Shown: one piece after another, positions 6,303-60,859 of the stretch
How the letters are laid out: each line of letters starts with the position of its first letter
Numbering within the stretch: the stretch's first letter is position 1
Assembly: GCF_017876625.1 (NCBI RefSeq)
Contig: NZ_JAGIOH010000001.1
Location: 4,485,501 to 4,549,500, forward strand
Reading direction: 5' to 3'
Length of the DNA stretch: 64,000 nucleotides
From: Streptomyces syringium
GTDB taxonomy: Bacteria; Actinomycetota; Actinomycetes; Streptomycetales; Streptomycetaceae
Program-made: the position numbers and the translations under genes
The notes under the pieces: model-generated
The model's input: only the letters and a program-made list of their open reading frames with translations
Told to the model about the DNA's origin: nothing
Database searches by the model: none

Positions 6303-7166
6303 ATGGGTCCCCTTCCCGATCCCGTGACGCCCGCCGGCCGCGACGGACTGGCCGCGCTGCTGGCGCGGCCCGGCCGCGCGGTCGTCGCGCTCGACTTCGA
6401 CGGCACGCTCGCCGACATCGTGCCGGACCCCGAGCAGGCCCGCGCCCACCCCGGTGCCGTGCCCGCCCTCGCCCGGCTCGCTCCCGTCCTCGGCTCCGTC
6501 GCCGTGGTCACCGGCCGCCCGGCCGGGGTCGCGGTCCGCTACGGCGGCTTCGCCGGGGTGCCCGGTCTGGAGCGTCTCGTCGTGCTGGGCCACTACGGCG
6601 CCGAGCGCTGGGACGCGGTCACCGGGACCGTGCACGCCCCCGCGCCGCACCCGGGCGTCGCTGCCGTGCAGGCGGAGCTGCCCGGCGTGCTGGACCGGTC
6701 CGGTGGCTGGCGGGGCACCTGGGTCGAGACCGCGCACATCGAGAACAAGGGCGGCCGCGCGATCGCCGTCCACACCCGCCGTGCCCCCGACCCGCAGGCC
6801 GCCTTCGACGCGCTGCGCGGGCCGCTCGAAGAGCTCGCGGAGCGGCACGGGCTGATCCTCGAGCCGGGCCGGATGGTCCTGGAGCTGCGCCCGCCGGGCA
6901 TGGACAAGGGCGTCGCCCTCGCCGAGTACCTCCGGGAGGTCGACGCGTCCGCCGTGCTCTACGCGGGTGACGACCTCGGTGACCTCGCGGCCTTCGCGGC
7001 GGTCGAGAAGCTCCGCTCCGAGGGGCTGCCGGGGACGCTCGTGTGCAGCGGCAGCTCGGAGGTCGCCGAGCTCGCCGAGCGCGCGGACCTCGTCGTCGAC
7101 GGCCCGAGCGGTGTCGTGGAGCTGCTCGGCGCCCTCGCGGACCGCCTGGACGGCCGGGCCTCCTGA
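6303..7166 (+). CDS. otsB: Trehalose-6-phosphate phosphatase
   Basis: This 287-residue HAD-superfamily phosphatase removes phosphate from trehalose-6-P in the cytosol. The catalytic nucleophile motif DFDGT is at residues 31-35, the second motif VTGRP near 64-68, and the metal-binding GDDLGD in the C-terminal third. The stretch ENKGGRAIAVHTR is typical of OtsB caps. The gene points toward otsA, which is on the other strand 337 bp away. Together they complete the OtsAB trehalose route. Confidence 0.93.
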   Translation: MGPLPDPVTPAGRDGLAALLARPGRAVVALDFDGTLADIVPDPEQARAHPGAVPALARLAPVLGSVAVVTGRPAGVAVRYGGFAGVPGLERLVVLGHYGAERWDAVTGTVHAPAPHPGVAAVQAELPGVLDRSGGWRGTWVETAHIENKGGRAIAVHTRRAPDPQAAFDALRGPLEELAERHGLILEPGRMVLELRPPGMDKGVALAEYLREVDASAVLYAGDDLGDLAAFAAVEKLRSEGLPGTLVCSGSSEVAELAERADLVVDGPSGVVELLGALADRLDGRAS

Positions 7167-7503: not shown

Positions 7504-8976
7504 TTACACCTCCAGAGCTCGCAGCTGGTCCAGGAACCAGCGCGCGGGCGGCAGCGCCGTCGCCGCCGAGGCCAGCCGCTTGGTGCGCTCCGCGCGCTCG
7601 GCGGGCTCCATGAGCAGGGCCTCGTGCAACGCCCGGGCCGTGGCCTCCACGTCGAAAGGATTGACGGTGATCGCGTCCTCGCCCAGCTCCGCGAACGCCC
7701 CGGCCTCCCGGGACAGCACCAGCGCGCAGCCGCGGTCGGAGACGACGGGCACCTCCTTGGCGACGAGGTTCATCCCGTCGCGGATGGGGTTGACCAGGGC
7801 CACGTCGGCGAGGCGGTAGGCGGCGAGCGAGCGGGCGAAGTCGTCCTTGACGTGCAGGACGACCGGCAGCCAATCCTCCGTGCCGAAGGCGGAGTTGATC
7901 TCCTGGGCGACCCGCTCCACCGCGGCCGTGTAGTCGCGGTAGACCGCCAGGTCCTGCCGTGAGGGGTAGGCGAAGGCGATGTGCACCACCTTGCCCCGCC
8001 ACTGCGGCCGGTCCTCCAGCAGCCTGCGGTAGGCACGCAGACCGCGCACGATGTTCTTGGACAGCTCGGTGCGGTCGACGCGGACGATCGCCTTGCGGTC
8101 CGGGCCGATCTGCTCGCGCAGCGCGGCCATCCGCTCCTCGACGTCCGCGCGGTGCGCCCGCTCGCGCAGGAAGTCGGCGTCGGCGCCGAGCCCGTGCACA
8201 CCGAGCCGGGTCGTCCGGCCCTCGAAGAGCACCGACAGCGCGCCGTCGGTCCCGTCGGCCCCGCCACCCTCGCGCACGACCTCCGCGCCCAGCACGTCCG
8301 CGCAGCACGCGGCGAACGCCTCGGCCCAGCGGCGGGTGAGGAAGGCGGCGCGGTCGCTGCCCAGCACGCCGCGCAGCACCTGCCCGGCCACGTCGTCCGG
8401 CAGCATCCGGAAGTAGTCCGGCGGGGCCCAGGGAGTGTGCGAGAAGTGACCGACGCGCAGGTCCGGGCGCCGCTCGCGGAGCAGGCCCGGTACCAGGGTC
8501 AGGTGGTAGTCCTGGACGAGGACCACGGCACCCGGAGCGGCCTCCTCGGCGAGGGCATCCGCGAAGGCGGCGTTGTACGCCTCGTAGGCCGCCCACTGGG
8601 CGCGGAAGTCCGCGTCGAAATCCGGCTCCAGGGGGGTCTGGTACAGCAGGTGGTGGACGAACCACAGCACGGAATTGGCGATGCCGTTGTACGCCGCGGT
8701 GAAGATCTCGGGGGCGATGTCGAGCATCCGCACGCTCATCCCGCCGGTGTCGGCCGGATCCAGCCTGCCGCCGGTACGCCGGACGGCCTCACGGTCGCCG
8801 TCGCCGAGGGCGGAGCACACCCACAGGGCCCCGGAGCCGGTGCCGATCGCACTCAGCCCCGACACCAGCCCGCCCCCGCCCCGGCCCGCCGCGAGCGAGC
8901 CGTCCTCGCGTCGCTTGTAGGAGACGGGTCCGCGGTTGGAGGCGACGAGAATCGGGGCGGCGTGCTCAGCGACCAT
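7504..8976 (-). CDS. otsA: Trehalose-6-phosphate synthase (GT20)
   Basis: This 490-residue glycosyltransferase family 20 enzyme makes trehalose-6-P from UDP/GDP-glucose and glucose-6-P. It opens with PILVASNRGPVSYKR, carries the substrate-loop QDYHLTLVPGLLRERRPD and HTPWAPPDYFRML, and has the nucleotide-sugar segment NPIRDGMNLVAKEVPVVS near the C-terminus. The ATG at 8976 is chosen over a TTG at 9009 because alignment starts there. It follows gpgS by 52 bp on the same strand and probably shares its transcript. Confidence 0.94.
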   Translation of the reverse strand: MVAEHAAPILVASNRGPVSYKRREDGSLAAGRGGGGLVSGLSAIGTGSGALWVCSALGDGDREAVRRTGGRLDPADTGGMSVRMLDIAPEIFTAAYNGIANSVLWFVHHLLYQTPLEPDFDADFRAQWAAYEAYNAAFADALAEEAAPGAVVLVQDYHLTLVPGLLRERRPDLRVGHFSHTPWAPPDYFRMLPDDVAGQVLRGVLGSDRAAFLTRRWAEAFAACCADVLGAEVVREGGGADGTDGALSVLFEGRTTRLGVHGLGADADFLRERAHRADVEERMAALREQIGPDRKAIVRVDRTELSKNIVRGLRAYRRLLEDRPQWRGKVVHIAFAYPSRQDLAVYRDYTAAVERVAQEINSAFGTEDWLPVVLHVKDDFARSLAAYRLADVALVNPIRDGMNLVAKEVPVVSDRGCALVLSREAGAFAELGEDAITVNPFDVEATARALHEALLMEPAERAERTKRLASAATALPPARWFLDQLRALEV

Positions 8977-9028
8977 GTCGCCAGCCTTGCCAGTGCGGGA
9001 AGCACTCAAACGTACGCACGAGGGACGG

Positions 9029-9976
9029 TTACGCGGCGTGCCTCTGTGCGTACTCGGGTATCCCGGCCATCGGCGGCCGCTCCTCGGTGTCCACCGCGTA
9101 CGTCCGCGGAACGAAGCCCTCCGGGGTGCGCTCGAACTGGGTCAGCGACGGACGCACCAGATGGCCGCGAGCCAGTCGGAGGTGCGCGGTCCGGTAGATC
9201 GCGGCGGCCATCCGGCCCAGCGCCCGGCCGTCCTGGTGCCGGTGCTTGCGCACCCCCACGTCGACCTGGGCCAGCGCGTCGAGGCCCACCGTGTGCAGCG
9301 CGTCCACCAGCAGCCCGAGCTCGACGCCGTAGCCGACGGGGAACGGCAGCCGCTCCAGCAGCGAGCGGCGGGCCGCGTACTCACCGCCCAGCGGCTGGAC
9401 GAAACCGGCCAGCTGCGGCCAGTGCAGATTCAGCAGCGGACGGGCCACCAGCTCGGTCACCCGGCCGCCCTGGCCGACGGCCTCGCCGAGCGGGCGGTCG
9501 TACATCGCCTTGACGAAGTGCACGTCCGGCTCGGTCAGCAGCGGCCCGACGATGCCGGAGACGAAGTCGGCCGAGAAGTCCCGCAGATCGGCGTCGACGA
9601 AGCAGACGACATCGCCCTCGGTCACCAGCAGCGACCGCCACAGCACCTCGCCCTTGCCGGGCAGCGCGGGCAGCCGCGGCAGCACCTCGTCCCGGTGCAC
9701 GACCCGCGCCCCGGCCGCGGCCGCGACCACCGCCGTGCGGTCGGTGGAACCGGAGTCCAGCACCACCAGTTCATCCACCAGCGGCACCGCCTCGGTCATC
9801 AGCTCCCGGCGGATCGTCGCCACGATCGCGCCGACCGTCGCCTCCTCGTTCAGCGCCGGCAGGACGACACTGACGGTGGTGCCGGCGCCGCGCTTGGCGG
9901 CGAGAATCCGGTCGAGCGGACGGTCTGCGGCGGACCAGGACCGCCGGGCCAGCCAGCGCTCCACCTCTTCCAGCAC
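9029..9976 (-). CDS. gpgS: Glucosyl-3-phosphoglycerate synthase (GT81)
   Basis: This 315-residue GT-A enzyme transfers glucose to 3-phosphoglycerate, the first step toward glucosylglycerate and, in mycobacteria, methylglucose lipopolysaccharide. The N-terminal VSVVLPALNEEATVG, the metal-binding DAD at residues 128-130, the GKGEVLWRSL loop at 107-116 and the acceptor segment YGVELGLLVDALHTVGLDA are all GpgS features. GTG is the start. It precedes otsA in a likely operon, pairing two compatible-solute or storage-glycan enzymes. Confidence 0.93.
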   Translation of the reverse strand: MLEEVERWLARRSWSAADRPLDRILAAKRGAGTTVSVVLPALNEEATVGAIVATIRRELMTEAVPLVDELVVLDSGSTDRTAVVAAAAGARVVHRDEVLPRLPALPGKGEVLWRSLLVTEGDVVCFVDADLRDFSADFVSGIVGPLLTEPDVHFVKAMYDRPLGEAVGQGGRVTELVARPLLNLHWPQLAGFVQPLGGEYAARRSLLERLPFPVGYGVELGLLVDALHTVGLDALAQVDVGVRKHRHQDGRALGRMAAAIYRTAHLRLARGHLVRPSLTQFERTPEGFVPRTYAVDTEERPPMAGIPEYAQRHAA

Positions 9977-10140
9977 GTGTACGACTCCTTCAGCGGGCTC
10001 GGGGGATGTGACCCATCTCGCGGTACGGACGCCTGGTTCCGGCGCCCATGCCTTCCGTTACAGTCTTGAACAACGCGGACGGCCATCGCATGTCGGGGTC
10101 GTCGCGCGAACAAACGCCTGGGCTGTGCCCAGTGCCATAC

Positions 10141-56743: not shown

Positions 56744-57187
56744 TCAGTGTGTTCGGCTGGCTTGGGCGGCGTCCGCGGCGAGGAGGTTGAGTCGTTCGAT
56801 GGAGTTGGCGGCTCGGACGGCGCAGGTCTTCCAGGTGTATCCGTTGGGGTGCTCGACGCTGATCATCCCGTTGGCGCCGACGGTTCGGACTCTGCCCATG
56901 CCGCCTGTGACGGTGTCGACCACCATGGTCCCGGGTGCGATGTCGAAGGCTTCGGCCTCGACCACCTTCCTGGGGTTCGCTGCCACTTGGGGGCGGGGCG
57001 AATGCCGGGGGCGGATGTCGATGCCGTGTGGGGTGACCCAGAGGGCGGCGTCGCCGCCGGTGAGGGAGCCGTCGAGTCTTGGTTCCGACGGCGTCGGGGC
57101 GGGGGCGGTGGCGGCTTGGGGCGTGTGGCCGCTGGACGGGAAATGTGCCCTCATCCATGCGAAGAGGCGGGGGATAGGGTTCCTCAT
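56744..57187 (-). CDS. Hypothetical protein divergent from mini-GntR
   Basis: This 147-residue protein has a Pro-rich N-terminal half and a compact C-terminal region (IAPGTMVVDTVTGGMGRVRTVGANGMISVEHPNGYTWKTCAVRAA) with a beta-rich look. No family is recognised. ATG at 57187. It diverges from the GntR-type gene with 165 bp between them, which suggests shared control. Confidence 0.65.
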   Translation of the reverse strand: MRNPIPRLFAWMRAHFPSSGHTPQAATAPAPTPSEPRLDGSLTGGDAALWVTPHGIDIRPRHSPRPQVAANPRKVVEAEAFDIAPGTMVVDTVTGGMGRVRTVGANGMISVEHPNGYTWKTCAVRAANSIERLNLLAADAAQASRTH

Positions 57188-57293
57188 GTCGTCAGCTCCT
57201 GAGGCTGGTGGCCATGCCCCCGGACCGGTCGCACGGTCGCGGGGGTCTTGCGCTGAGCGCCACATTAGAGCGGGTCTGCTGCACATGTCTATA

Positions 57294-57309
57294 GGCGTAT
57301 GCTGACGCC
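57294..57309. promoter_or_regulatory. Inverted repeat between the divergent pair
   Basis: GGCGT at 57294-57298 and ACGCC at 57305-57309 with a 6-bp spacer form a possible operator about 47 bp upstream of the GntR-type start. The region also has TATAGG- and CTATG-like boxes. Confidence 0.35.
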
Positions 57310-57355
57310 AGCTACTATGTTCGAGTGGGTGTCAATACCTACAGTCACGGCCGTG

Positions 57356-57583
57356 ATGGATTTCGACCCGACGCTCCCCAAGTGGACCCAGATCGCCGAC
57401 GTCATTCGGCAGCGCATCGCCAGCGGCGAGTACCCGGTGAATCACCTGATCTCGGAGACGAAGCTGGAGCAGGAGTTCGGCGTCGCACGAGTGACCGTGC
57501 GCAAGGTGACAGCGAAGCTGCGCGAAGAGGGCCTGATCGTCACTACCCACGGCATGGGTTCGTTCGTCGCTCCCCAGTCCTGA
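57356..57583 (+). CDS. Stand-alone GntR winged-helix protein
   Basis: This 75-residue protein is a GntR DNA-binding domain only: WTQIADVIRQRIASGEYP, then KLEQEFGVARVTVRKVTAKL and a wing IVTTHGMGSFV. No effector domain follows. Such short GntR proteins are common beside integrative elements and small accessory operons in Streptomyces. GTG at 57353 is an alternative start. Confidence 0.85.
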   Translation: MDFDPTLPKWTQIADVIRQRIASGEYPVNHLISETKLEQEFGVARVTVRKVTAKLREEGLIVTTHGMGSFVAPQS

Positions 57584-57697: not shown

Positions 57698-58729
57698 TCA
57701 GCACATGCCGGTGTGATGACTTCGGGGAGCTGTCTTCTCCAAGTAGCACAGCGTTTCGTAGGCGGCCTGGACGAAGGAGCCGGTCGGGGCAGGGGTGGTG
57801 TTGGCCAGGGCGGCGAGGGCTGTGCCGGAGCGGGGGAGGAAGCCGGCGAAGGCGGTGAATCCGCGGGTGGTGCCGGAGTGGTGGAGCAGGGGGCGGCCGT
57901 TGCGGGGGCGGAGGTTCCAGAGGAGGCAGTGGCGGTTGCCGGTGCGGGGGAGGGCCAGCCGGGGGCGTTGGACGTCGGCAAGTGCGGCGCGCAGGCTGGG
58001 GGACCCGGCGGTGTCCGGGACCAGCAGGGCCTGTAGGTAGTGGAGCAGATCGCGGGCGCTGGAGCGCAGGGCGCCCGCGGCGGGCAGGCCGGGGATCAGC
58101 AAGGCGGGGCGTGGGCGGCCGTGCCAGTGGCCCACTGCCTGGGGGCGGTGCGGGTCGCAGTCGGTGTCGGTCAGGCCGAGCGGGGCCAGGACACGTTCGT
58201 TCAGCAGGTTGGCGTAGTCGCTGCCGTGGCCTCCGGCGGCGTGGGCCAGGGCGTGACCGAGGAGCCCGGCCCCGTAGTTGGAGTAGCGGACGTGGGTGCC
58301 GGGGCGGTGGTGCAGACGGGTGCGGGTGAGTGCCGCAAGGGCGTCGGATGAGGTGAAGGTGGCGTAGGGGTTGCTGAACCAGCTGTGAATCGGCGAGCGG
58401 CGCATGAGCCCGAGGGGCATGCGGGGCAGGCCGGAGGTGTGGGTGGCCAGGTGGAGCAGGGTGATCGGGGGGCCGGGGAGTCGGTGGGGGAGGTAGCGGT
58501 CGAGGGGGTCGTCATAGCCCACCTCCCCGCGTGCGGCGAGCTCGGCCAGGAGCAAGGCGGTGAACGTCTTGGTGAGGGAGCCGGTTTCGAACCGGGTCCC
58601 TGGCTCGGCGGTGCCCGCGCACAGCACAGTGCGCTCATCTCCGTGGACGACCGCGATGGCCACCGCGGTCGCTCCCTTGGGGGCGCGGAGCAGGGACGAC
58701 AGGCGGTCTCCGGGCGACGCCCCCGTCAC
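57698..58729 (-). CDS. Cytosolic SxxK serine hydrolase (beta-lactamase family), last gene of peptide operon
   Basis: This 343-residue protein has the class C/PBP triad: SLTK (Ser51, Lys54), YSN (149-151) and HSG (284-286) in the place of KTG. It has no signal peptide, unlike typical beta-lactamases and DD-peptidases, so it probably acts inside the cell, for example as a peptidase or esterase. GTG start overlaps the previous stop by 4 nt. It is the last of four coupled genes, the first of which encodes a 60-residue peptide; leader-peptide cleavage is one possibility. Confidence 0.85.
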   Translation of the reverse strand: MTGASPGDRLSSLLRAPKGATAVAIAVVHGDERTVLCAGTAEPGTRFETGSLTKTFTALLLAELAARGEVGYDDPLDRYLPHRLPGPPITLLHLATHTSGLPRMPLGLMRRSPIHSWFSNPYATFTSSDALAALTRTRLHHRPGTHVRYSNYGAGLLGHALAHAAGGHGSDYANLLNERVLAPLGLTDTDCDPHRPQAVGHWHGRPRPALLIPGLPAAGALRSSARDLLHYLQALLVPDTAGSPSLRAALADVQRPRLALPRTGNRHCLLWNLRPRNGRPLLHHSGTTRGFTAFAGFLPRSGTALAALANTTPAPTGSFVQAAYETLCYLEKTAPRSHHTGMC

Positions 58730-59643
58730 CGCGCCTGTGCCGCCCGTGCGAGCGCGATGGAGCCCGCGATAGCGGTGACGATGACGGTGTGCTGGTGGTC
58801 CTTGAAACGCTGGACAGGATCGTCGTCGACGGGGTCGCCGTCGCGCGGGATGAAACCGTCCGGGTGTTGCAGGGCGGCGATGGCGTCCCAGTCCGAGGGG
58901 TCGCAGTAGGGCTCGTCCAGGCAGGCGCCGACGATGAGCAGTTCACCGACCAGGTCCCACTGCTCGACCTCGCGCCAGATGTCGATCCACACCGGCAGCC
59001 AGGCCCGCAGGTACGAGGTGTACTCGGGCGCCAGGCCGCCCGGCCGCGCTCCCCAGTCGGTGAGGTGGAAGACGGTGTGGGTCATCGAGTAGGCGGTCAT
59101 CCAGTCGATGGCCCACGGCTCGGGGACCGCGCCGAGCCAGGTGGCGCGGGCGAGTGCCGCCCAGTCGAACGAGCGGTCCAGGCCGGTGACGCGGGCGGCA
59201 TTCGCCACGGCGAGCCGCCGGTTCGGCAGCAGCTCGACGCCGTGCACCGAGCGCAACTGGAGAGAGTGAGTCAGCAACCGGTCCAAGCCGACGTGGCGGA
59301 AGCCGCACCGCACGAAGGATACGTACGTCTCCAGCGGATCGGTCATCAGCATGTGTCTCAGCTGGCGCTCATAGAGCACGTCACCGCGGCGGAACTGCTC
59401 CCAGGCGAAGTCTGCCAAGTCCTGAGCCGCGGCAAGCTGCCCTGGGCCCAGGATGCCGTCCCGCAGGATGAGCGAAGCGGCCAGCGTGGTCTCGCCCAGA
59501 GGCTTGTAGAAACCGTCGAGACCGGCGGCTGTCTCCAGGGAACCACCGGGGAAGGTGCCGTGGGCGCGGTTCGCGTGCAACCAGGAAAGCGCCCGGTCTG
59601 CCAAGCTCCGCGCCGCCACAACCACCGCATCGGTGACCGTCAT
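58726..59643 (-). CDS. Unrecognised 305-residue protein, peptide operon
   Basis: This protein is largely helical with a repetitive look (LHANRAHGTFPGGSLETAAG, IAALQHPDGFIPRDGDP), reminiscent of alpha/alpha-toroid proteins, and has MTHTVFHLTDWG and HQHTVIVTAIAG near possible active residues (His, Asp). I vaguely associate such proteins with DUF6895 but cannot confirm. It overlaps both neighbours by ATGA. No signal peptide or membrane helix. Function unknown. Confidence 0.75.
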   Translation of the reverse strand: MTVTDAVVVAARSLADRALSWLHANRAHGTFPGGSLETAAGLDGFYKPLGETTLAASLILRDGILGPGQLAAAQDLADFAWEQFRRGDVLYERQLRHMLMTDPLETYVSFVRCGFRHVGLDRLLTHSLQLRSVHGVELLPNRRLAVANAARVTGLDRSFDWAALARATWLGAVPEPWAIDWMTAYSMTHTVFHLTDWGARPGGLAPEYTSYLRAWLPVWIDIWREVEQWDLVGELLIVGACLDEPYCDPSDWDAIAALQHPDGFIPRDGDPVDDDPVQRFKDHQHTVIVTAIAGSIALARAAQAR

Positions 59644-60371
59644 GCGTCTGCTGCCTCCGCATCCGGCTTCCTGCCGAGCAAGCAGCCTGCAATGGCCAGA
59701 TCGAGGGCGGCACGCGGGCCACCCCCACCCAGTAGCCGCACATGTTCCGTCACCGCCACCGGGTCCAGCGGCAGCGCGACACCCTCACGGTGAAGCCATG
59801 CCAGCCAGCGGGCCAGCCGCACAGCCGTAGGAAAGTCACGGCGCAGCACCGAGCGGGTGACCCCCTGGCACAGAGGCAGCGCCGCATTGCGGACCGCCTC
59901 GTGCACCGGCCCGTCCAGACCAGGAGCGGCAAGGGTCCCAAGCTGAGCCATCCGCACCGACCACCGCTGCCAATTGACGGTGTCGGCGAGACCGTCCTGT
60001 GGAGGCGCGGCGTTCACGCCCGGGGCGCTCGTCCCGCCGAACCGGGCCAGGAACTGCGCGGTCGCCCAGTCACGCCAGGCCATGGTCCGCTCGTCCTGAC
60101 GCCCCGAACGCCCAGCACCCGGCAACGGGAGCATCTCGAAGGACCGGGCCACGACGGCCGCGCCCTCCGCGTCGAAAGGAGCGCCGGCCAGGGCCTGTGG
60201 AGCGAAGGTATCCGCTCCGATGACCCGGACGGCAGCGAAGGACGTCATCGGATCGGGAGTGCCGTCGGCGGACCACGCAGCCAGCGCCACACCCTCAGCG
60301 CCGCGCAGGGCGCTGAGGACACGGCCCGCGAGATCATCCGCCGCAGCAGCGAAGTCCGCCCGGGCGCTCAC
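59640..60371 (-). CDS. Unrecognised 243-residue protein, peptide operon
   Basis: This protein starts MSARADFAAAADDLAGRVLS and has an N-terminal part (VALAAWSADGTPDPMTSFAA) followed by a helical part (ATAQFLARFGG, AVRLARWLAWLHREG). It matches no family I can name. It is translationally coupled (ATGA) to the 60-residue peptide gene upstream and to the 305-residue gene downstream. It has G/C-biased codons, supporting a real gene. Confidence 0.72.
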   Translation of the reverse strand: MSARADFAAAADDLAGRVLSALRGAEGVALAAWSADGTPDPMTSFAAVRVIGADTFAPQALAGAPFDAEGAAVVARSFEMLPLPGAGRSGRQDERTMAWRDWATAQFLARFGGTSAPGVNAAPPQDGLADTVNWQRWSVRMAQLGTLAAPGLDGPVHEAVRNAALPLCQGVTRSVLRRDFPTAVRLARWLAWLHREGVALPLDPVAVTEHVRLLGGGGPRAALDLAIAGCLLGRKPDAEAADA

Positions 60372-60550
60372 TTGCCCTTGGGCTCCTTCGGCTCCTTGGG
60401 CGACAGGAGGAGGCTGACGAGCAAGATCATTGAAGCTTCCGGGGAAGGAACGGGAGCACCGCTGACAGCGGCCTCCGGCTCCACCATCAGGTCCCCGACC
60501 GCAGACGTCTCGGCCGGGGTTGCGAAACGGGTGGTTCCTTGCGCGAGCAT
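60368..60550 (-). CDS. 60-residue peptide heading the four-gene operon (possible precursor peptide)
   Basis: ATG at 60550 has a strong GAGGAGG site 6 nt upstream. The peptide has an acidic N-terminal half (MLAQGTTRFATPAETSAVGD...), a hydrophobic stretch MILLVSLLLS (residues 41-50) and a basic Pro/Lys tail PKEPKEPKGK. It has no Cys. The leader-like acidic half, the following coupled genes for two unknown proteins and a cytosolic serine hydrolase resemble a ribosomally made peptide system, but no known modification enzyme is present. It could instead be a membrane microprotein. Confidence 0.65.
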   Translation of the reverse strand: MLAQGTTRFATPAETSAVGDLMVEPEAAVSGAPVPSPEASMILLVSLLLSPKEPKEPKGK

Positions 60551-60859
60551 CAGTGCCTCCTCAGGGAGAGATGTCACCAGCCGCACGGCTATGCCACATT
60601 CAGAGCCTAGACGGCGGCATCAGGCGCTCCGGGCCCCAGCGCGACAAACCCACCTTTCAGATGAACTGTGGGGTGGCTCCGCACTCTTGGCGCCCCACTG
60701 AAGCGAGGGCTGCCCCCTGCGCGGCACCGTGACCCGGCCCGTTGTCAGTGGTGTGCCCTAAGTTCATCAGCAGTAGGGCGCCTTCACGGCACGGCTCCTG
60801 CCAGGTCGCCGTGCCCGCGCTCAAGTTGCGTTGATGGAACAGACACCACGGGGGTTGCC
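60551..60859. other. Gap between peptide operon and RibD-type gene
   Basis: This 309-bp region must carry the operon promoter (minus strand) and the rightward gene promoter. I see no convincing -35/-10 pair. GTGGGG and CCCCAC near 60669 and 60693 could pair in a weak hairpin. No gene is seen. Confidence 0.4.

Follow-up and report, generated by a model that had tools for sequence, protein, structure and literature searches.

A four-gene cassette of Streptomyces syringium with a small peptide, a DUF6895 protein and an SxxK hydrolase: probably a new family of ribosomally synthesized and modified peptides

What is made by an operon that starts with a 60-residue peptide and continues with a helical protein, a DUF6895 protein and a serine hydrolase? 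This question is raised by a locus of Streptomyces syringium, which lies on the minus strand at positions 57698-60550 of a 64,000-nucleotide stretch of contig NZ_JAGIOH010000001.1 (positions 4,485,501 to 4,549,500), termed here the window. A sequence-only reading had described four coupled open reading frames, which are present as claimed, and had considered either a new peptide maturation system or an accessory membrane peptide module. Our analysis argues for a maturation system: the cassette probably represents a new family, with two main subtypes, of the ribosomally synthesized and post-translationally modified peptides (RiPPs), themselves a known group of compounds. Regarding its chemistry, we consider it fairly likely that the DUF6895 protein inverts residues of the peptide core and that the hydrolase then cuts, or possibly cyclises, at the D-residue thus formed.

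The cassette is compact. The precursor peptide gene (gene 1; 60368-60550), defined by its translation and an alignment of 93 different homologues, encodes a peptide of the form termed type A below. It is followed on the same strand by gene 2 (59640-60371, GTG start; 243 residues, all-helical), gene 3 (58726-59643, ATG start; a 305-residue DUF6895 protein and candidate peptide epimerase) and gene 4 (57698-58729, GTG start; a 343-residue SxxK serine hydrolase of family PF00144 and candidate D-stereospecific peptidase or cyclase). As read directly, each stop codon overlaps the next start codon by four nucleotides, namely GTGA at 60368-60371, ATGA at 59640-59643 and GTGA at 58726-58729; the earlier count of three overlaps was right, and its description of all three as ATGA was not. 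Likewise, the ribosome-binding site GAGGAGG had been recognized correctly (60556-60562, minus strand), and its spacing to the ATG of the peptide gene is 5 nt (CACTG) rather than 6. Of the 42 cassettes with a single DUF6895 gene, 36 likewise have a 4-nt overlap between genes 2 and 3, and GGAGG-type sites precede the peptide start codon at most homologous loci. A promoter scan found no sigma-70-type site.

The sequence-only reading had staked its precursor idea on whether the peptide keeps its partners and whether its frame is conserved as protein. A peptide search in 393 genomes of the genus yielded 39 matches at E < 0.001, including two in the genome of the window itself (7.7 Mb, two contigs), and at 37 of the 38 loci fetched the three partner genes are all present, with order and strand unchanged. 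The exception, L075, is a decayed remnant, where a 38-codon frame (~9995-10110, minus strand) with core and tail, VYAPEAQGQLLLALLLSPSEPKQPNGK, stands without partners and is the trace of a lost cassette. Approached from gene 3, a collection scan gave 80 named loci from Streptomyces, Kitasatospora, Embleya, Streptacidiphilus and Saccharothrix, as well as from records named Nocardia, Pseudonocardia and Streptosporangium; the peptide is found at 79 of these, gene 2 at all 80 and the hydrolase at 78. At locus L184 (S. klenkii) the peptide frame stops after MLTQESRK (~7080-7120) and the three downstream genes are kept, which is a natural loss of the precursor core. The window's own genome harbours a second complete type A cassette 2.5 Mb away (L041; G000:C1:7086001-7106000, at ~9.9-12.8 kb of the locus), with identities to the window cassette of 55% for the peptide, 48% for gene 2, 59% for the DUF6895 protein and 52% for the hydrolase.

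The peptide frame is kept in 116 loci, which encode 93 different peptides. The ratio of non-synonymous to synonymous substitution rates (dN/dS) is 0.32 for the peptide compared with 0.25 for DUF6895, in pairs picked by DUF6895 identity, since picking by peptide identity biases the ratio low; the peptide is thus under purifying selection. The outcome of this test does not refute the precursor idea, and the locus shows two traits of a RiPP system, a short encoded precursor conserved as protein and, beside it, conserved candidate maturation genes.

The 60-residue window peptide has no match in Pfam, NCBIfam or PHROGs. The peptides fall into distinct forms. In type A, residues 2-25 are variable, and strong conservation is seen at E26, A27, S30, D31 (G in the window), A32, P33 and P37, within a motif EAxxSDAPxYxPEA. 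Residues 40-49 form a Leu-rich run, followed by S50, P51, P54 and mostly K55 and E56. The MILLVSLLLS stretch and the PKEPKEPKGK tail of the window peptide are as described earlier, the tail with its preceding serine reading SPKEPKEPKGK. The conserved leader and variable core that had been expected are not seen in this subtype, where conservation instead lies in the C-terminal half. A recognition part with a variable core is visible in type B, a sister form with two tandem DUF6895 genes (peptide - gene 2 - DUF6895 - DUF6895 - hydrolase), whose precursor reads ...RDSRECAALAL, then six variable residues, then LLLSPPTPRPKKG; positions 40-45 have an entropy of 1.0-2.6 bits, and both flanks are near-invariant. 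Types A and B also separate in the gene 2 tree. A third form (L148, L155) has a different precursor, in which the hydrophobic run leads into ANPRR or SNPKK. In all forms the run ends in a Ser/Ala/Asn-Pro step that is followed by a charged tail, and this suggests a processing site common to all precursors. At another locus (L078), a weak second precursor-like stretch, LPGAPLPCPENIWRIIKLGRI (E 0.06), lies upstream of the true peptide gene in a frame ending at ~9826 of the oriented locus.

These patterns bear on the view that the peptide is not a precursor and is itself functional, as a small peptide of the membrane or of signalling, and that the three proteins bind it, fold it or turn it over. 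A functional domain would be conserved as the C-terminal half of type A is, and the cassette lacks a transporter. Yet the hydrophobic run comprises only ~10 residues, well under the ~20 of a membrane helix, which equally weakens the accessory membrane module proposed earlier. Moreover, type B varies exactly within this run, between nearly fixed flanks, and DUF6895 occurs in lanthipeptide clusters. Accordingly, we regard a functional peptide as quite unlikely.

Two proteins of the cassette had been left without a family. One of them, the 305-residue gene 3 product, belongs to Pfam family DUF6895 (PF21836; E = 2.3e-83; 280.3 bits, above the curated cut-off of 23.8); the 243-residue gene 2 product has no match in Pfam, NCBIfam or PHROGs. 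The all-helical gene 2 model (pLDDT, the predicted local distance difference test score, 90.6) retrieved no Foldseek match at E <= 0.001, and a second look with VIA pointed to complement C3d with a Z of 9.0, which is under the trust level for helical proteins. A relation of gene 2 to DUF6895 was considered and rejected: although both are helical, they are not detectable paralogues, because the profile comparison gave E 0.45. Gene 2 is possibly a precursor-binding partner.

The AlphaFold model of gene 3 (pLDDT 94.3) is an alpha/alpha toroid, the fold that the sequence-only reading had guessed. VIA-align relates it over ~250 residues to squalene-hopene cyclase, drimenyl diphosphate synthase, GH105 and GlcNAc 2-epimerase (Z 15-17). 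Among 18 DUF6895 members from several RiPP settings and one Bacillota plasmid, T188, H189 and D230 are invariant and D196 is nearly so. The candidate function derives from a report that names, in its title, a DUF6895 lasso-peptide epimerase (Shi et al., ACS Catal. 2026, 16:1757; ref 371 of PMC13352647). Alternatively, DUF6895 might perform another peptide chemistry, such as dehydration, cyclisation or a prenyl/terpenoid reaction, in a RiPP system without D-residues. Squalene-hopene cyclase and drimenyl diphosphate synthase are among the top structural matches (Z 16-17), and the 20-23% identity between the cassette copies and DUF6895 proteins of other RiPP settings leaves room for a change of function. 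However, T188, H189 and D230 do not differ between the settings, the partner is a D-reading type of hydrolase, and the sole report on the family has epimerase in its title; on balance, another chemistry seems unlikely.

The distribution of DUF6895 extends beyond the cassette. Approximately half of the genomes sampled from the genus (91 of 199) and from the order (148 of 294) carry the gene, and in a phylum sample it was found in six of 396 genomes, all of one genus. The order search, the collection scan and a plasmid search also revealed it in other actinomycete genera, in Cupriavidus and in Pseudalkalibacillus. At L298 it is part of a class I lanthipeptide cluster, whose LanB, LanC and ATP-binding cassette (ABC) genes were confirmed by Pfam; at the sister loci L285 and L286 it occurs with planosporicin-like precursors, ITSVSYCTPGCTSEGGGSGCSHCC, and at L287 it adjoins LanB and a cupin. 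A role as epimerase in lantibiotic pathways is possible. No DUF6895 gene in a lasso cluster was met in this analysis, and the link to lasso peptides comes from the title cited above.

Further settings of the family were observed. At L289, DUF6895 is located inside or beside a class I lanthipeptide cluster, as at L285, L286 and L298. At L143, L144, L146, L147, L149, L291, L293 and L299, two DUF6895 genes ~2 kb apart lie by radical S-adenosylmethionine (radical-SAM) proteins, a glycosyltransferase-like protein and a transporter resembling the major facilitator superfamily. A longer DUF6895 protein (~560-600 aa) is preceded at L141, L145, L151 and L297 by a conserved 65-72-residue protein, KALDFLRTSGLV...GYVLAWE(R/K)YVLVVA. 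Finally, on a Pseudalkalibacillus hwajinpoensis plasmid (L302; NZ_CP156675.1, 2118-9119) a Bacillota DUF6895 gene lies downstream of SpoIIM-like and ABC ATPase genes and a gene for a hydrophobic 108-residue protein, a set that gives the impression of a circular-bacteriocin system; a gene for an 86-residue protein stands directly ahead of the DUF6895 gene.

The last gene of the cassette was correctly recognized earlier as an SxxK serine hydrolase without a signal peptide: it matches PF00144 (E 2.6e-53), and no signal peptide is evident on inspection by eye. The motifs S51-x-x-K54, Y149-S150 and H284-x-G286 correspond to the SxxK, Yx[NS] and HxG signatures of S12 peptidases and of thioesterases of the penicillin-binding protein (PBP) type, and the catalytic residues are invariant in 25 aligned hydrolases. 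PF00144 is the single domain in the 343 residues; the C-terminal lipocalin-like domain of PBP-type thioesterases is absent. In the window's own genome, the hydrolases of the two cassettes share 56% identity across 306 residues; 16 further matches there are far weaker and for the most part shorter, the best with 37% over 204 residues. The majority of S12 proteases are reported to be D-stereospecific (PMC2651629), and the related PBP-type thioesterases, which are SxxK enzymes as well, link a D-residue at the C-terminus to an L-residue at the N-terminus (PMC11735501). At L155 the hydrolase gene (8483-9622) includes a foreign-looking insert, ...GWRGRLPPGVYKRQ..., which resembles an assembly or adapter artefact.

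Family membership also raises the idea that the hydrolase serves in beta-lactam resistance or self-protection and merely rides along with the peptide genes. The best relatives of known structure are class C beta-lactamases, Pab87 (2qmi) also matching at residues 40-319, and two of the 80 named loci do without the hydrolase. Nevertheless, identity as a class C beta-lactamase was rejected, because the protein scores 89.5 bits in the corresponding NCBIfam model, far under its cut-off of 415. In addition, no export signal is evident, and many loci of both subtypes show translational coupling of the hydrolase gene within the cassette. A resistance function therefore appears highly improbable.

Epimerase, D-reading hydrolase and peptide in one operon would form a coherent pathway, in which the precursor is inverted and then cut or closed. 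The gene 1 product would comprise a variable N-terminal part, EAxxSDAPxYxPEA as recognition motif, a short core of hydrophobic Leu/Ala/Gly type and, from the conserved Ser-Pro onwards, a follower of Pro, Lys and Glu. The DUF6895 protein would bind this precursor, helped by gene 2 in holding or presenting it, and invert one or more alpha-carbons of the core to the D-configuration, probably through acid/base catalysis by the invariant H189 and D230, a role that we infer for these residues. Gene 4 would then recognize the D-residue and act there, in all probability close to the conserved L-L-S-P junction, hydrolysing off the follower or, as the less likely variant discussed below, joining the ends of the core. 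Since the hydrolase would act at a D-residue, epimerisation would gate the cut. The unit of four coupled genes, its recurrence and conservation across genomes, the modelled folds and the catalytic motifs are established; the peptide as substrate, the inverted residue, the cut site and a linear or cyclic product are predicted elements of this scheme.

Co-occurrence of the four genes, the second full copy, the six variable residues of type B, the RiPP contexts of DUF6895 together with the title of Shi et al., the hydrolase motifs and the D-stereospecificity of S12 enzymes all speak for inversion followed by cleavage. The same co-occurrence, type B core and DUF6895 contexts, together with the conserved frame, also lend good support to the broader proposal of a new peptide maturation system. 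Several observations weigh against the invert-then-cut pathway. The toroid fold is common to terpene cyclases and glycosidases and by itself shows no function; the candidate assignment of gene 3 as epimerase traces back to a single paper title; in type A conservation falls on the C-terminal half and not on a leader; and at L223 and L225 no hydrolase lies beside DUF6895. Furthermore, no transporter, immunity gene or regulator recurs near the cassette, non-cassette gene clusters being found in at most seven of the 38 type A loci (cassette genes and antisense frames excluded; genes called with a rough caller).

The hydrolase might, more specifically, be a macrocyclase that cleaves the peptide at its D-residue and links this residue to the core N-terminus, yielding a small hydrophobic head-to-tail cyclic peptide that exits the cell without a transporter. 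The related PBP-type thioesterases join D- to L-termini in this way, and a short, hydrophobic core with no recurring transporter would suit such a product. Ring closure would, however, require prior removal of the leader, and the cassette lacks a second protease; we consider a macrocyclase rather unlikely. Speculative, and rather doubtful, is the fuller proposal of a new RiPP class, where a toroid epimerase plants a D-residue and a cytosolic PBP-like SxxK enzyme reads it to cut and ring-close the core. Such a class would parallel SurE-type cyclisation on the ribosomal side, and its two main subtypes would differ in having one epimerase gene or two.

The closest known systems differ from the cassette in several respects. 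The lasso-pathway epimerase of Shi et al., likened here by its title, belongs to the Pfam family of gene 3 and, according to that title, acts on a ribosomal peptide. In contrast, Pfam detects no lasso B (transglutaminase-like) or C (asparagine-synthase-like) domain, hence no lasso protease or cyclase, in the cassette proteins or the scanned flanking genes, and precursor and partners differ. MslH, a metal-dependent lasso peptide epimerase (PMC10406935), is a stand-alone, non-radical-SAM peptide epimerase like the candidate gene 3 product but belongs to another protein family, gene 3 matching DUF6895 only. In the class I lanthipeptide clusters L298, L285 and L286 the DUF6895 gene adjoins RiPP precursor and maturation genes, as in the cassette; those clusters possess LanB, LanC and ABC genes, whereas the cassette has none of these, Pfam finds no LanB/LanC or LanM-type domain in it and the window peptide is devoid of cysteine. 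The radical-SAM domain of proteusin and epipeptide epimerase systems is likewise missing from the cassette according to Pfam. The thioesterases SurE, PenA and WolJ are actinomycete SxxK enzymes that act on peptide D-residues (PMC11735501), yet the peptides that they release are non-ribosomal and they possess a lipocalin-like domain, whereas gene 4 encodes one domain only and is coupled to the gene of a ribosomal precursor. Similarly, the S12 peptidases Pab87 and R61 DD-carboxypeptidase share the SxxK, YxN and HxG motifs with gene 4 but are not coupled to a precursor-peptide gene, and Pab87 has an extra lipocalin domain.

No description of this four-gene cassette was found in the accessible literature, and the main text of the decRiPPter paper mentions no beta-lactamase, serine hydrolase or epimerase. 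In two annotated plasmid copies the small and middle proteins are termed "hypothetical", and only the hydrolase is named. If the proposed pathway is correct, the cassettes would constitute a large and easily mined family of D-residue-containing ribosomal peptides, connect epimerisation with proteolysis in a way that can be tested, and potentially allow D-containing or cyclic peptides to be made compactly, by four genes and with no need for a non-ribosomal assembly line.

The flanking genes of the window, a GntR-like gene (57299-57583), a RibD-like gene on the plus strand from ~60857 and a frame at 56744-57286, were rejected as members of the cassette, because none has a counterpart at the other cassette loci. 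The GntR-type gene, located directly downstream of the cassette on the opposite (plus) strand, encodes a 94-residue DNA-binding protein without an effector domain.

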